This document shows, one piece after another, positions 21,266-25,680 of a DNA stretch of 41,042 nt; position 1 is the first letter of the stretch, and every line of letters begins with the position of its first letter. A program made the position numbers and the translations under genes. The notes under the pieces are model-generated. The model saw only the letters and a program-made list of their open reading frames with translations. It had not been told where the DNA came from and did not search any database. Source of the stretch: Planctomycetaceae bacterium (lineage in GTDB: Bacteria; Planctomycetota; Planctomycetia; Planctomycetales; Planctomycetaceae); the NCBI GenBank assembly GCA_021732845.1, contig JAKFUF010000146.1:1-41042 (forward strand), in the 5' to 3' direction.

Positions 21266-22309
21266 TCAACTGGCATGACTTCCAAATCCAGCAATTCCCA
21301 GCGACTGATAGAATGCCGCCAAGTGCCGGGCGTCGTTGGCAAACCATCCAGACAACCATTGGTTGTAGATGTCAGCCACTTCTTCAAGCAGGGCCGTTCC
21401 GGTTGTCGCGGAGGCGACGAGCTTGCCCGTGATAATCCCAGAGAGCAGGGCCTTCAGAATCCCCTTGGCGGAGGTGGGGTCGAGAACCGCGGCGGCGTCG
21501 CCGACCATGAACCACCCTGGCCCCGCCGTCTTCCCGGCCAGCCGCCAGGTCACATCGGCTCCGCGCGGCGAGCCTAGGGAAACCAAGCCGCGGAATTCGT
21601 CCGGACGCCAGTCGGCGGCGTGCTTCGTGCCATCCAGCACGACCCGCGTCCACTGATAGACTCCGGGACGAACCAGCGCCGTCCACAGCCAGCCGGAAGA
21701 GTCTCCCACCAGCAACGGAGCCACGTCGAGATCGGGAAGCGAGCCGGTGGCGTAGCCATAGCGAGCCACAAGCGACGGGGAATGGACGCTGCGTTCCATG
21801 CGAAGCTTTGCGCCCAGCCAGTGGGCGCGTCCCGAGGCGTCGACCACCATGGGTGCTGACATCGGCCCCTCGTCCGTCAGCACCCCGGCAATCCGGCCGT
21901 TCTCCATCAGAACTTCGCGGGCGGCGCAGGGTTGGAAGACCCGCGCCCCCAGTTCGCGGGCGCGCCCGAGGAGCAGCGCATCAAAATCAGCCCGCCACAC
22001 CTGGCATCCGTGCCAGGGTCCCGCCGCGTCCTGGCCATACGGCTCGAAGCGGCTGGCATCGTTCCAGCGGATCCGAATCCCCGCATGGCGGGAGCCGACC
22101 ACCGCCGCCAGCCGGTCGGCGACTCCCAACTGTGCCAGCACCGTCTCGACGCCGGGATGCAGCGTTTCTCCGGGCCGGTCTGCGGGAAACGAGTCGCGTT
22201 CCAGGAGCCGCACGCGCAACCCCCGGGCCGCACAGGTGATGGCGGCGGCGCTCCCTCCAGGGCCGCCGCCAATGACTATGACGTCGGCATCGAAGTGTCC
22301 AGCGTCCAT
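21266..22309 (-). CDS. LodB-like FAD-dependent oxidoreductase (quinoprotein maturation)
   Basis: 347 aa. The FAD-binding GxGxxG lies at the N-terminus (VIVIGGGPGGSAAA), then LLERDSFPADRPGETLHPG, the pattern of tryptophan-halogenase-like and LodB flavoproteins. A second FAD motif, GWFMVGDAAAVLDPTSAKGI, is near 285. There is no halogenase WxWxIP motif, which argues for LodB. LodB installs the cysteine tryptophylquinone of LodA, probably by hydroxylating the Trp. The gene overlaps the end of the LodA-like gene by 34 bases, as expected of a translationally coupled partner. The C-terminal ~40 residues are helical. Confidence 0.82.
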   Translation of the reverse strand: MDAGHFDADVIVIGGGPGGSAAAITCAARGLRVRLLERDSFPADRPGETLHPGVETVLAQLGVADRLAAVVGSRHAGIRIRWNDASRFEPYGQDAAGPWHGCQVWRADFDALLLGRARELGARVFQPCAAREVLMENGRIAGVLTDEGPMSAPMVVDASGRAHWLGAKLRMERSVHSPSLVARYGYATGSLPDLDVAPLLVGDSSGWLWTALVRPGVYQWTRVVLDGTKHAADWRPDEFRGLVSLGSPRGADVTWRLAGKTAGPGWFMVGDAAAVLDPTSAKGILKALLSGIITGKLVASATTGTALLEEVADIYNQWLSGWFANDARHLAAFYQSLGIAGFGSHAS

Positions 22310-24786
22310 GAGTCACCCGCCTTTTTGATCACCCCATTGCCGTCCGAGTACGCTGTGACTTCCTCCAGAATCTCGACGAGGACCACCTTCGGATCGGCGG
22401 GATCCTCTCGGTGGTCGCCCCAGCGGTAAATCTCGAAGCGATAAATGTGCTGTCCGGTGAAGTCGTGTTTGGCCACGGCCTGCACATTCCGAACTGCGGC
22501 ATCGTTCGCGGCGATCCGTTTGAAGGAGAACACCGCCCAGGCCGCCTTCGCCCGCATCAGCATGCTGTAGTTGTCGGGCCTGAGCAGGTCCCCCTCCCGG
22601 ATCCCCAGGCTCCAGTAGACCGCGGCCATGGCCAGAATTCGCGCCTTGTACTCGTCCGGCTCGGTTCGGGCCGTCAGTGAGGCGGTCATCGTTCCCAGTG
22701 TGTCGATGTAATCGACGTGGTCCATGTCCTGGTAGGCGACAACGTCGCGGTCGCCCTGTGTGCGGCGTTGCGGGCCGGGCACGCCATCCCATGGCATCCG
22801 CCTGCCGTTGGCGGTGGGGACCATCCCCAACTCCTCGTCCGTGAGCGGCACGATCGAAGGCCAGGGATAGGAGAGTCCGTCCAGCACCTTGCTGGGAGGG
22901 TATTGGCGGGTGCCGTCGGGTGCCAGTCCCGGCCAGTAGGCCCCAAGCGCGGCGCACAATTTGGCATCCTCGATGAACGGGGAGCCCAGTCCATGCCCCA
23001 CCAGGTACTTGTGAATGTCCCTGCCGCCGTTGGTGGCGCGCACGCCAATGCTGACATCCCAGCCGGGGTCAAACAGCCCGGGGGAACCATCTGGCAGCCC
23101 CACCTTCTCAAAGTTCAACGGACCATTCGGGACCTGAACCGGGAGTTTGGCCTGATCCAGCCCGGCAGGCGCAAGCTGCGAGAGGATGGCGGTCATCGTG
23201 TCATCGGTCAGGCTGAACCCGACCGGCAGTTCCACATTCGCGGCGATGCGGGCGTGGGACAGGGCCAGCGGAGGAACCGTCCAGAGCGTGGCCCGGAGCG
23301 GCTTGGGGACTTCGGTCTGCCACCACCGCATGAGGTCGCGCTGGTTGAGCTTGGGCAGAAAGTCCGGAAGTCCCACCAGGACAAACCCGGCCCGGCTGTG
23401 CTGGACCCCGCGGCCGCGCAGTTGCGGGCATTCCGCGGCGACCCAGCCGTCCCCGGTGGAGTCGGTGTAGTGCAGCACCTCATAGCCGCCCTGGCGAATC
23501 AGATCCATCAAGTCGGGACGCGGATTCAGGCTCTCGACCTTTTCGTCCACGACCCGGTGCCGGATGTTGATGTACTCCGGCGCGTTTCGCGGGGAATCCT
23601 GATCCGCATCCAGGGCGTAGCCCGGCACAATCGGCGCGGGCGCGTTCGGCATGACAAAGTACGATGAGATCTGGAGGTTTTTCGAGCTCCGGCTGAGTGC
23701 GTTGTGCCAGGGAAATGTCAGCAGTTTGTCCTTGTACCGGGCTTCCCGGATCAGCGGCGCGGGCTTGGGCACCACCAGTCCCTCGCCGTTGTCCTCCTGC
23801 CGGGAGAGTTCCGCGATCTTTTCGTCCTTGATCACGAACGGGAACTGCTCCAGATCGTGGCCTGTCCAGCCCGTCGCCAGCCCCTGGCCCTGGATGACCC
23901 GGTGAAAGCTCCCGATGACATCGTTCCGCATGCCACTGCTCAGCCGGACATCCAGCTCCATGTCGGCGATGCATTCCCTGCCGTTGAACAGCTTGTGGAC
24001 CGGGACCCAGAACTCGCGCGCCTCGTCGCCCTGCTGCGGGTCCTGCAGCCCGATCCGCCCGACATCTCCGGTGACCCGCCGCGCGAGGTAGGCAGCGAAC
24101 CGCCGGGGGGTGACGCGAAAATCGTAGGGGCGCGCGTCATCAACGGTGGCGAAGGACCGCCGTTCCGCGTCGTAGTGCGGCTCGATCGTGCCCAGATGGG
24201 CGATGCCCGTCCGGGCGAAGCACAACTGCGCATGCCGGCCATTGGCGGACATCGGCGCGTTGCGATAGTGGAGCGCGAAGACCACGATGCCGATGTCCTC
24301 CGGCTTCGCGTCCCCCTTGAGTTCGTCAAGCGTGCCCTTTCGAGACGCGTAGATGTAGTTCTCGACGGTCTCGATCTCGGCCATGGTCGGGAACCCGCGC
24401 AGCCGGACCCCATCGCGGGTGGCAACGACACTGGGCGCCGCCAAGGCATGGTAGAGCAGGCTTTGGTCGGGGCAGCCGGGTTCAACCGCCTTCTTCCCAT
24501 GCAGTGCAAAGTCTCCGAAGCCCGGACAGTTCCGGTCGATCTGGGTGAGCGGCTTGCCAAGTTCGCCCGCCAGATCCGGTGCCTGGATGTCCAACTGGCC
24601 CCCGCTCGCCTCCAGCAGCAGTTCCCTCCAGCCCAGCGGCGCCAGGCGGCGGCACACGGCCGCCACGCCGTCGAGCAACGGCACCCCCGGCACGGAGGCC
24701 CCCAGACCGCCCACCGCCAGCGCGGCAACGCCAAACGCGCTGAGCTTCACGAAGTCTCGACGCGACGTTTCATTCATTCCACTCAT
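22276..24786 (-). CDS. Distant LodA/GoxA-like quinoprotein oxidase with Tat leader
   Basis: 836 aa. The leader is a twin-arginine signal (SRRDFVKLSAFGVAALAVGG). The region after it is not the usual LodA opening (RVAIHPAIGIARVG-type sequence is missing), but residues 186-205 (AQLCFARTGIAHLGTIEPHY) and 263-275 (VHKLFNGRECIAD) are distinctive. Near the C-terminus FIEDAKLCAALGAYWPGLAP places Asp607 four residues before Cys611, the spacing I recall for LodA Asp512/Cys516, and WP..xPD follows as in LodA. A Trp candidate for the cofactor is Trp666 in MPWDGVPGP. The adjoining LodB-like gene supports a CTQ amine or amino-acid oxidase. Substrate unknown; assignment is by motif and context. Confidence 0.65.
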   Translation of the reverse strand: MSGMNETSRRDFVKLSAFGVAALAVGGLGASVPGVPLLDGVAAVCRRLAPLGWRELLLEASGGQLDIQAPDLAGELGKPLTQIDRNCPGFGDFALHGKKAVEPGCPDQSLLYHALAAPSVVATRDGVRLRGFPTMAEIETVENYIYASRKGTLDELKGDAKPEDIGIVVFALHYRNAPMSANGRHAQLCFARTGIAHLGTIEPHYDAERRSFATVDDARPYDFRVTPRRFAAYLARRVTGDVGRIGLQDPQQGDEAREFWVPVHKLFNGRECIADMELDVRLSSGMRNDVIGSFHRVIQGQGLATGWTGHDLEQFPFVIKDEKIAELSRQEDNGEGLVVPKPAPLIREARYKDKLLTFPWHNALSRSSKNLQISSYFVMPNAPAPIVPGYALDADQDSPRNAPEYINIRHRVVDEKVESLNPRPDLMDLIRQGGYEVLHYTDSTGDGWVAAECPQLRGRGVQHSRAGFVLVGLPDFLPKLNQRDLMRWWQTEVPKPLRATLWTVPPLALSHARIAANVELPVGFSLTDDTMTAILSQLAPAGLDQAKLPVQVPNGPLNFEKVGLPDGSPGLFDPGWDVSIGVRATNGGRDIHKYLVGHGLGSPFIEDAKLCAALGAYWPGLAPDGTRQYPPSKVLDGLSYPWPSIVPLTDEELGMVPTANGRRMPWDGVPGPQRRTQGDRDVVAYQDMDHVDYIDTLGTMTASLTARTEPDEYKARILAMAAVYWSLGIREGDLLRPDNYSMLMRAKAAWAVFSFKRIAANDAAVRNVQAVAKHDFTGQHIYRFEIYRWGDHREDPADPKVVLVEILEEVTAYSDGNGVIKKAGDSWTLDTSMPTS

Positions 24787-24861: not shown

Positions 24862-25680
24862 TCACCGCTGGATCGGCACCCGGTGCATCTGCAGTTCATC
24901 CTTGACCACGACCTCGATGAACTCCTGCTCACTGCCCACGAGGCTCAACTTGATGCGCTGCCCCGGTTCCAGCTTGTTCTTTTCAATGTTCTCCGCGCCG
25001 CTCACACAGACCCGCTTGCCGACGCTGGTTGGCGTCACTTCCCTGGACGCGGCGACGACATCGACGGACAGCACATGATCAAAGTCTGTCTCCTGCTTGC
25101 CGGGCTTGTGAGGGGCGCTGAGCTGGTGGGCCAGAAACGCCGCCTTGGGCGTGCCGAACAGCACGTAGGTCAAGGCCTTCGGTCGTGGAAACCTGGGGTT
25201 CAGTTCTTCCTTCCACACAATGCCCTTGACCGTTGCCGTCACGTTCCTGCCGACAACCTGACGCTCCTCGCCCTCAAAATGGAAGATGTCGCCGTTGAAG
25301 CTCTTGCCGGCCTTCAGCGTGTCGGGAAGCACCCAGTCGTCTTCATCCTCGGCACGGTCGGCCGACACCGGACCCTTCCTGAACGGCTCCAACTGGTATC
25401 GGCGCTCCCGCTTGAGGTCTTCCTTGACATCCTTCTCGATGGCCAGCCTCGAGTCGTCATCGAATGACACCTCCACGATGTACTGGTATGAATGGATGCT
25501 GGAGAACCTTGGAAAATGGGACAGGAAGAACTTCCCGTCACCAATGCAGACGCGGAATTCATGATGCCCGACCGGCATTGATCCGCCATGATGGTCGTCA
25601 TGCTGCGCCTGCAACGATGAAGCGGATGCGAGGCTGACGAGAACCGCCGAGAACAAGCAGGCTTGCCTGATGAATGACAT
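24862..25680 (-). CDS. Exported His-rich protein of an unnamed family, LodA neighbour
   Basis: 273 aa from ATG 25680; the frame extends to 25986 but overlaps the amidase gene. Signal peptide ~1-25 (LASASSLQAQ), then HDDHHGGSMPVGHHEF, a His-rich N-terminus. The body has FFLSHFPRFSSIHSYQYIVE, FNGDIFHFEGEE, LTYVLFGTPKAAFLAHQLS and DFDHVLSVDVV. I recognise this motif set (LSHxPxF..HxYQ and LFGxxxxxFLAH) from unnamed exported proteins in other bacteria but know no function. The His cluster suggests metal binding. It sits 54 bases after the amidase and 75 before the LodA-like gene, consistent with one operon. Confidence 0.7.
   Translation of the reverse strand: MSFIRQACLFSAVLVSLASASSLQAQHDDHHGGSMPVGHHEFRVCIGDGKFFLSHFPRFSSIHSYQYIVEVSFDDDSRLAIEKDVKEDLKRERRYQLEPFRKGPVSADRAEDEDDWVLPDTLKAGKSFNGDIFHFEGEERQVVGRNVTATVKGIVWKEELNPRFPRPKALTYVLFGTPKAAFLAHQLSAPHKPGKQETDFDHVLSVDVVAASREVTPTSVGKRVCVSGAENIEKNKLEPGQRIKLSLVGSEQEFIEVVVKDELQMHRVPIQR

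Follow-up and report, generated by a model that had tools for sequence, protein, structure and literature searches.

An exported bacterial relative of the PcncAAAD C-terminal double beta-barrel domain encoded beside a LodA/GoxA-fold gene

In the 41,042-nucleotide stretch of a Planctomycetaceae genome analyzed here (the window), a gene for an unnamed exported protein lies next to a gene that a sequence-only reading had called LodA-like. The question raised by this locus is what such a protein might do beside an enzyme of that kind; the earlier reading had suggested metal binding or partnership in electron transfer.

The target protein and its homologues

The target gene (24862..25680, minus strand) runs from an ATG at 25680 to a stop codon ending at 24862 and encodes a stand-alone protein of 272 aa. 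The signal peptide claimed in the sequence-only reading is present: the 12 most hydrophobic residues begin at residue 7, with a mean Kyte-Doolittle value of 2.41, and the signal is Sec-type. LQAQHDD follows the hydrophobic stretch, with a putative cleavage site. The three motifs claimed in the same reading, HDDHHGG, LSHFPRFSSIHSYQYIVE and LFGTPKAAFLAH...DFDHVLSV, were likewise all found in the translation. An internal repeat formed by the two motif halves was suspected and rejected, as pairwise shuffles were not significant.

In a Planctomyces MAG (L009), a related protein aligned with all 272 residues, gap-free, at 64% identity. The two genes differ at 57, 52 and 134 first, second and third codon positions, respectively, in 272 codons. 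The dN of 0.23 against a dS of 1.45 indicates that the target is under purifying selection, and the gap-free full-length relative, the codon-position differences and dN/dS together indicate a real gene, not a chance ORF. The single target protein yielded nothing convincing (empty results or noise) in Pfam, NCBIfam and PDB sequences.

We found ten homologues including the window copy. Those of the Planctomyces MAG and of Ca. Anammoxibacter (L007/L015) were reached through a LodA-type gene, and seven were reached without such a seed: Embleya (L051), another actinomycete (G745/L066), Pseudoalteromonas (L071, L073 and L074), and Streptomyces canus and Streptomyces NBC_01361 (L052 and L072, fragments only). 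The earlier claim that the family occurs in other phyla was thus correct, with members in Actinomycetota and Gammaproteobacteria. The homologue of Pseudoalteromonas HL-AS1 (L073 6998-7669) is split into two ORFs and is an apparent pseudogene. The pair formed by the target and the L007 protein is unconvincing when taken by itself, as 4 of 200 shuffles reached its score; it is L009 and the remaining members that support this kinship.

Broader searches added no further homologues. With the target as query, 150 genomes at the order level and 392 at the phylum level each gave one match, the own genome, as did profile A3 in 150 family-level genomes; plasmids gave no further locus, and 86 pattern matches in genome contigs included none that was confirmed. 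No member of the target family was found in viral contigs. In the 15 genomes behind the examined loci, profile A3 matched once, in the L009 genome; it missed the L007 copy present in one of these genomes, so the reach of the negative searches is limited. In 23 genomes with LodA or the family of the LodA-like neighbor, profile A7 brought only the window and anammox copies above noise, together with two weak, unproven matches (G525 and G517, E 0.02 and 0.1). The C-terminal part of the L007 protein gave three weak matches in 294 genomes of the phylum (E 0.007-0.009) and none in plasmids, where the DNA of the L066 gene also found nothing; nearly all plasmid matches listed for the full L007 protein covered its cupredoxin part only. 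A loose motif screen of eight weak-match loci (L055, L056, L058-L060, L062, L063 and L065) gave four matches in ORFs judged spurious by eye and none in the rest, and a profile scan of L067-L070 found no match.

Homology to the C-terminal domain of PcncAAAD

A profile of seven homologues from three phyla matched chain A of 6EBN in PDB sequences (E 1.2e-7), and profiles of four and five homologues matched the same chain (E 1.2e-7 and 2.2e-8, respectively). For each of these three overlapping profiles, 6EBN was the sole PDB match at E <= 0.1; the matched stretch spans approximately residues 713-863 of the 1013 and corresponds to the beginning of the C-terminal appendage described below. A two-sequence profile and the three individual members tried did not match 6EBN.

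6EBN was released on 2018-12-12, after the AlphaFold2 training data. We predicted the structure of the target from three sequences without templates, which gave a model of low confidence (pLDDT 43.5). A Foldseek search with this model placed 6ebn_A first and 6ebn_B second (E 1.9e-3 and 2.0e-3; prob 0.99 and 1.00), followed by a third row at E 0.17 and prob 0.09; the superposition on 6ebn was loose (TM 0.34, rmsd 15.5). VIA-align superposed 102 residues of the model (36-211) on 719-878 of 6ebn at rmsd 2.9 and Z 5.8, in the range (Z below 8) where the tool cautions against common arrangements; the next row had Z 4.6.

The protein in 6EBN is the Psilocybe cubensis noncanonical aromatic amino acid decarboxylase, PcncAAAD. 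According to the portion of PMC13062060 available to us, its appendage, Met718-Lys1013, consists of two beta-barrels and is called a unique, novel domain. This C-terminal domain (CTD) is non-catalytic, yet activity is lost without it, and co-expression of the CTD as a chain of its own brings part of the activity back. Ca2+ at the domain interface and between the barrels stabilizes the enzyme, and the metal sites described there are Ca/Na sites with oxygen ligands (Asp, Glu, Ser and backbone oxygens) (PMC13062060).

The profile comparisons show that the target is homologous to this C-terminal double beta-barrel domain, and the low-confidence model suggests that it may adopt a double beta-barrel fold. 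We consider it very improbable that the two proteins share a small beta-barrel arrangement but neither descent nor function. Such an explanation would fit the low-confidence model, the modest VIA-align Z and the failure of the three single members to reach 6EBN, but it is opposed by profile E values of 1e-7 to 2e-8 in three overlapping alignments with nothing else below E 0.1, and by colinear identities at H40, H55, Q66 and H185.

Only six residues are invariant in the 7/7 homologues compared: H40, H55, H63, Q66, G137 and H185. H55, H63, Q66 and H185 fall inside the two long motifs of the target. The HDDHHGG cluster shows no positional conservation, and the invariant N-terminal His is H40. Four His among six invariant residues, given 12 His in 272, correspond to a post hoc hypergeometric p of 3e-5. 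The alignment with 6EBN retains H40, H55, Q66 and H185 and loses H63. At site B of 6EBN, Glu824-Asp825 align with E158-E159 of the window protein, the only homologue with both acids; L009 reads Q-E at this position, keeping the second acid, and an acid pair is absent here from the remaining five homologues. The alignment stops short of the region of the site A acid Asp971.

These residues bear on the two guesses made from the sequence. Amicyanin is the electron acceptor partner of the tryptophylquinone enzyme methylamine dehydrogenase. The L007 homologue carries a fused N-terminal amicyanin-like domain, matched by NCBIfam TIGR02657 at E 1.8e-6 and below the curated cut-off (28.3 of 110.2 bits), in which H34, C72, H75 and M78 may serve as type-1 copper ligands. 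No cupredoxin match (the domain with type-1 copper His/Cys/His/Met ligands) was obtained for the target itself in Pfam and NCBIfam. The target could accordingly be pictured as a metal or electron-transfer partner, with H40, H55, H63 and H185 binding a transition metal and the protein carrying electrons from, or handling products of, the LodA-type enzyme. We regard this as unlikely. His makes up 4/6 of the residues invariant in 7/7 homologues, the anammox relative has its fused domain, and an FMP-type heme-binding protein occupies a neighboring slot at L016, L018 and L020 (described below); against these points stand the missing cupredoxin match in the target, the sub-cut-off score of the L007 domain, and the alignment of H40, H55 and H185, though not H63, with His residues of 6EBN, where the described metal sites have oxygen ligands only (PMC13062060, as far as available). 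The metal-binding guess therefore keeps its four invariant His and loses ground to the kinship with a non-catalytic domain for which Ca/Na sites with oxygen ligands are described, and the electron-transfer guess keeps a single supporting fact, the L007 fusion with its sub-cut-off match. As the metal sites described for the fungal domain are built from Asp, Glu, Ser and backbone oxygens, the invariant His may bind a second metal or have a structural role.

The LodA/GoxA-fold neighbor and its cofactor residues

Downstream of the target, after 75 bases, lies a gene for an 836-aa protein (22276..24786, minus strand) with a Tat signal matched by NCBIfam TIGR01409 above its cut-off. Its family comprises 19 distinct loci in several phyla. 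No LodA/GoxA match was obtained for this protein in Pfam, NCBIfam or PDB sequences, for six further family members in Pfam (L007, L008, L009, L017, L023 and L025), or for the L007, L012, L013 and L017 members in NCBIfam; an 18-sequence profile of the family found no match in PDB sequences. An assignment as an ordinary LodA by sequence was therefore rejected.

Structure and profile comparison gave a different picture. An AlphaFold2 model of the neighbor built from 16 sequences reached pLDDT 79.3 and pTM 0.83, and in VIA-align GoxA/LodA filled the top 14 rows, with Z 8.5 to 5.0 over only about 230-300 of the 836 residues; the next row had Z 3.1. In hhalign, the family scored 42.8 against a LodA profile, compared with 17.1 +/- 2.1 (maximum 23.1) in 60 column shuffles of the LodA profile, at an own probability of only 29% and E 5.9e-4. 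The L023 member was matched by the LodA profile at E 7.7e-4. Foldseek, used alone, missed LodA, with GoxA only at rank 26 (E 1.6). Taken together, the model and the profile comparison show that the neighbor has a LodA/GoxA fold. The term LodA-like used in the sequence-only reading is thus justified for the predicted fold, though not by the sequence searches described above.

The next gene, at 21266..22309 on the minus strand, overlaps the 836-aa gene by 34 bases and encodes a LodB/GoxB/QhpG-type FAD monooxygenase of 347 aa. Its best NCBIfam matches were QhpG (7.6e-33) and GoxB (7.4e-26), with LodB at 4e-17, all under the curated cut-offs. According to the part of PMC7876137 available to us, the flavoprotein QhpG dihydroxylates Trp en route to cysteine tryptophylquinone (CTQ). 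A LodB-like gene adjoins the 836-aa family in 16/19 loci; L026 is marginal, and none was seen in L022 and L024. In three unrelated loci an FMP-type heme-binding gene adjoins the LodA-fold gene, as another putative partner in the slot of the target homologue (L016 8871-9896, L018 8670-9788 and L020 4889-5905; NF040572 at E 9e-89 for L016).

In the accessible portion of PMC4417212, the CTQ of LodA is formed by C516 and W581, and every LodA-like protein covered there (168 genes) has Cys and Trp aligned at these positions. Judged by their conservation and the distance between them (65 in LodA, 71 in Embleya), the Trp of PWQ and the Cys five residues before the F of FxPG probably correspond to W581 and C516. 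Among 17 LodA-family proteins, the PWQ Trp (17/17) aligned with F604 of the neighbor and the near-invariant Cys (15/17) with G567. In 18 members of the 836-aa family, the Trp column contained F in 17 and Y in one, and the Cys column contained G, A, D, F or S; the count of 0/18 for the CTQ residues depends on the hhalign register and the column assignment. Neither CTQ-forming residue seems to be present in the family. Conservation extends to 18/18 members for W576 and W666 and to 17/18 for C611. E606-D607-x3-C611 with W666 was considered as a CTQ pair and dropped, as the profile alignment placed C611 on the second LodA Cys.

Elsewhere in the genome of the window lies a LodA-family gene of the canonical kind that keeps both CTQ columns (G000:C191:11253-11621, L032; PF18417 at E 1.7e-22). 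Two other LodA-family proteins (L033 and L037) keep the Trp of PWQ/PWH, but their CTQ Cys column reads Gly or Leu.

A wider hypothesis, which we hold to be doubtful though conceivable, is that enzymes that process amino acids share the double beta-barrel as a portable module for their activation, which mushrooms have fused to a PLP decarboxylase and which acts in trans on LodA-type enzymes in bacteria. The partner branch in the window, having lost both CTQ residues, would on this view use its flavoprotein to build another cofactor derived from Trp, such as one made from C611 with W576 or W666. The sole member without C611, L022, is also without an adjacent flavoprotein, in keeping with a different cofactor; L024, which retains C611 although no adjacent flavoprotein was seen, speaks against it.

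Linkage to LodA-type genes and a possible role

A LodA-type gene adjoins the homologue in four lineages: the window, L009, L007 and Embleya. In L009 the gene order is the same as in the window: amidase, target, 836-aa homologue, flavoprotein. The Embleya locus was found by searching with the target family alone and contains a LodA-LodB-homologue operon with an overlapping ATGA. The LodA-family gene upstream of this homologue has both CTQ columns and matched NCBIfam GoxA (E 7.5e-117) and LodA (9.8e-62), both under the equivalog cut-offs. The four linkages thus involve two kinds of LodA-type enzyme and both gene orders.

Counted within three genes, a LodA-type gene accompanied 4/10 homologues overall, two of the four linkages (L009 and L007) having been reached via the LodA-type gene, and 1/7 in the set without such a seed, which includes two fragments and one split gene. 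A scan with LodA and 836-aa-family profiles covered 14-20 kb surrounding the homologues of L066, L071, L073, L074, L052 and L072 and detected no LodA-type gene there. In P. xiamenensis, LodA lies on the same replicon as the homologue, about 138 kb away. Seen from the partner, a homologue adjoins the 836-aa family gene in only 3/19 loci, with two of the 19 (L011 and L014) ending within 500 bases upstream, so the LodA-fold partner usually does without it. With 4/10 overall against 1/7 in the unseeded set, linkage to LodA is recurrent but optional, not general. The linkage proposed in the sequence-only reading, together with the count it had called for, is accordingly upheld for four lineages, Embleya being an independent find, and weakened by the single case among seven unseeded homologues. 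M36 (fungalysin) peptidase genes recur in three of the examined loci (L007 1871-3790; L013 13404-15413, by sequence resemblance; L052 3004-5019).

The uneven linkage raises the alternative that the target is a general exported protein with an unrelated role, such as metal or nutrient handling, that is only occasionally recruited beside LodA-type genes. Six unseeded loci without a LodA-type gene nearby would agree with this, as would the LysR regulator that flanks L073 and L074 and the TonB-dependent receptor near them. Four separate linkages, one with an ATGA overlap, spread over two LodA-type families and both gene orders, argue to the contrary, as does the rarity of LodA_C genes, which were present in only 4/149 and 5/185 sampled genomes. 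We consider this alternative quite unlikely.

Export signals agreed in the 4/4 linked loci, as judged by hydrophobicity and the RR motif only: in the window and L009 the target is Sec-type and the partner has an RR motif, and in L007 and Embleya neither signal is present. Upstream of the target, after 53 bases, lies an amidase gene (PF01425; 25734..27095 on the minus strand for the part scanned, with the true start further upstream) whose ORF contains the twin-arginine motif TSRRRF. This Tat amidase may perhaps supply an amine or amino acid substrate.

Kinship with an activating domain, together with a position beside a LodA-type gene in several unrelated bacteria, suggests that the target is a helper subunit of the LodA-type enzyme, and a non-catalytic relative with oxygen-ligand Ca/Na sites points to a docking or stabilizing role. 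The explanation that we favor, with modest confidence, is that the target is a Sec-exported, stand-alone relative of the PcncAAAD appendage that docks on the LodA/GoxA-fold enzyme encoded at 22276-24786 and stabilizes or activates it. The enzyme would probably be processed in the cytoplasm by the LodB/QhpG-like flavoprotein (21266-22309) and leave the cell in folded form via Tat, and the target would probably meet it outside the membrane. By analogy with the PcncAAAD appendage, it would dock there and stabilize or activate the enzyme, perhaps with the help of Ca2+; any part played by the invariant His is putative.

In the portions of the literature available to us, the PcncAAAD appendage has until now been known from fungi only, and among the matches listed in an open-access literature search none linked LodA-type enzymes with the PcncAAAD domain. 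The appendage now gains a family, of which the separate exported bacterial form beside LodA-type enzymes is new. Its occurrence as a separate bacterial protein suggests that the appendage naturally acts in trans and connects it with another, unrelated class of enzymes for amino acids, and a formerly unnamed protein family receives a testable role. The analysis also exposes a LodA-fold branch whose scanned members Pfam and NCBIfam leave unmatched; this branch is seemingly without the CTQ residues and usually has an adjacent modifying flavoprotein.

Among known systems, LodA/GoxA share with the 836-aa neighbor the predicted fold, the colinear motifs IGIARVG, DGxVxA, FxPG and P-[WF]-x-x-D-x-x-x-C...WP, and a LodB-like neighboring gene. 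The Tat signal of the neighbor resembles that of GoxA groups IIA and IIB, as given in the part of PMC4417212 available to us. By contrast, the CTQ-containing lysine and glycine oxidases of the LodA/GoxA type have Cys and Trp, whereas 18/18 members of the 836-aa family apparently have neither. The modifying flavoproteins LodB, GoxB and QhpG provide the best NCBIfam likeness of the protein encoded at 21266-22309, below the cut-offs, and the likeness to amicyanin concerns the domain of the L007 fusion only, which is absent from the window protein. The PcncAAAD appendage resembles the target in its profile match, its top-ranked fold match and the residues H40, H55, Q66 and H185; the appendage is fungal and fused to a PLP decarboxylase, whereas the target is a separate exported bacterial protein encoded beside a LodA-type gene.
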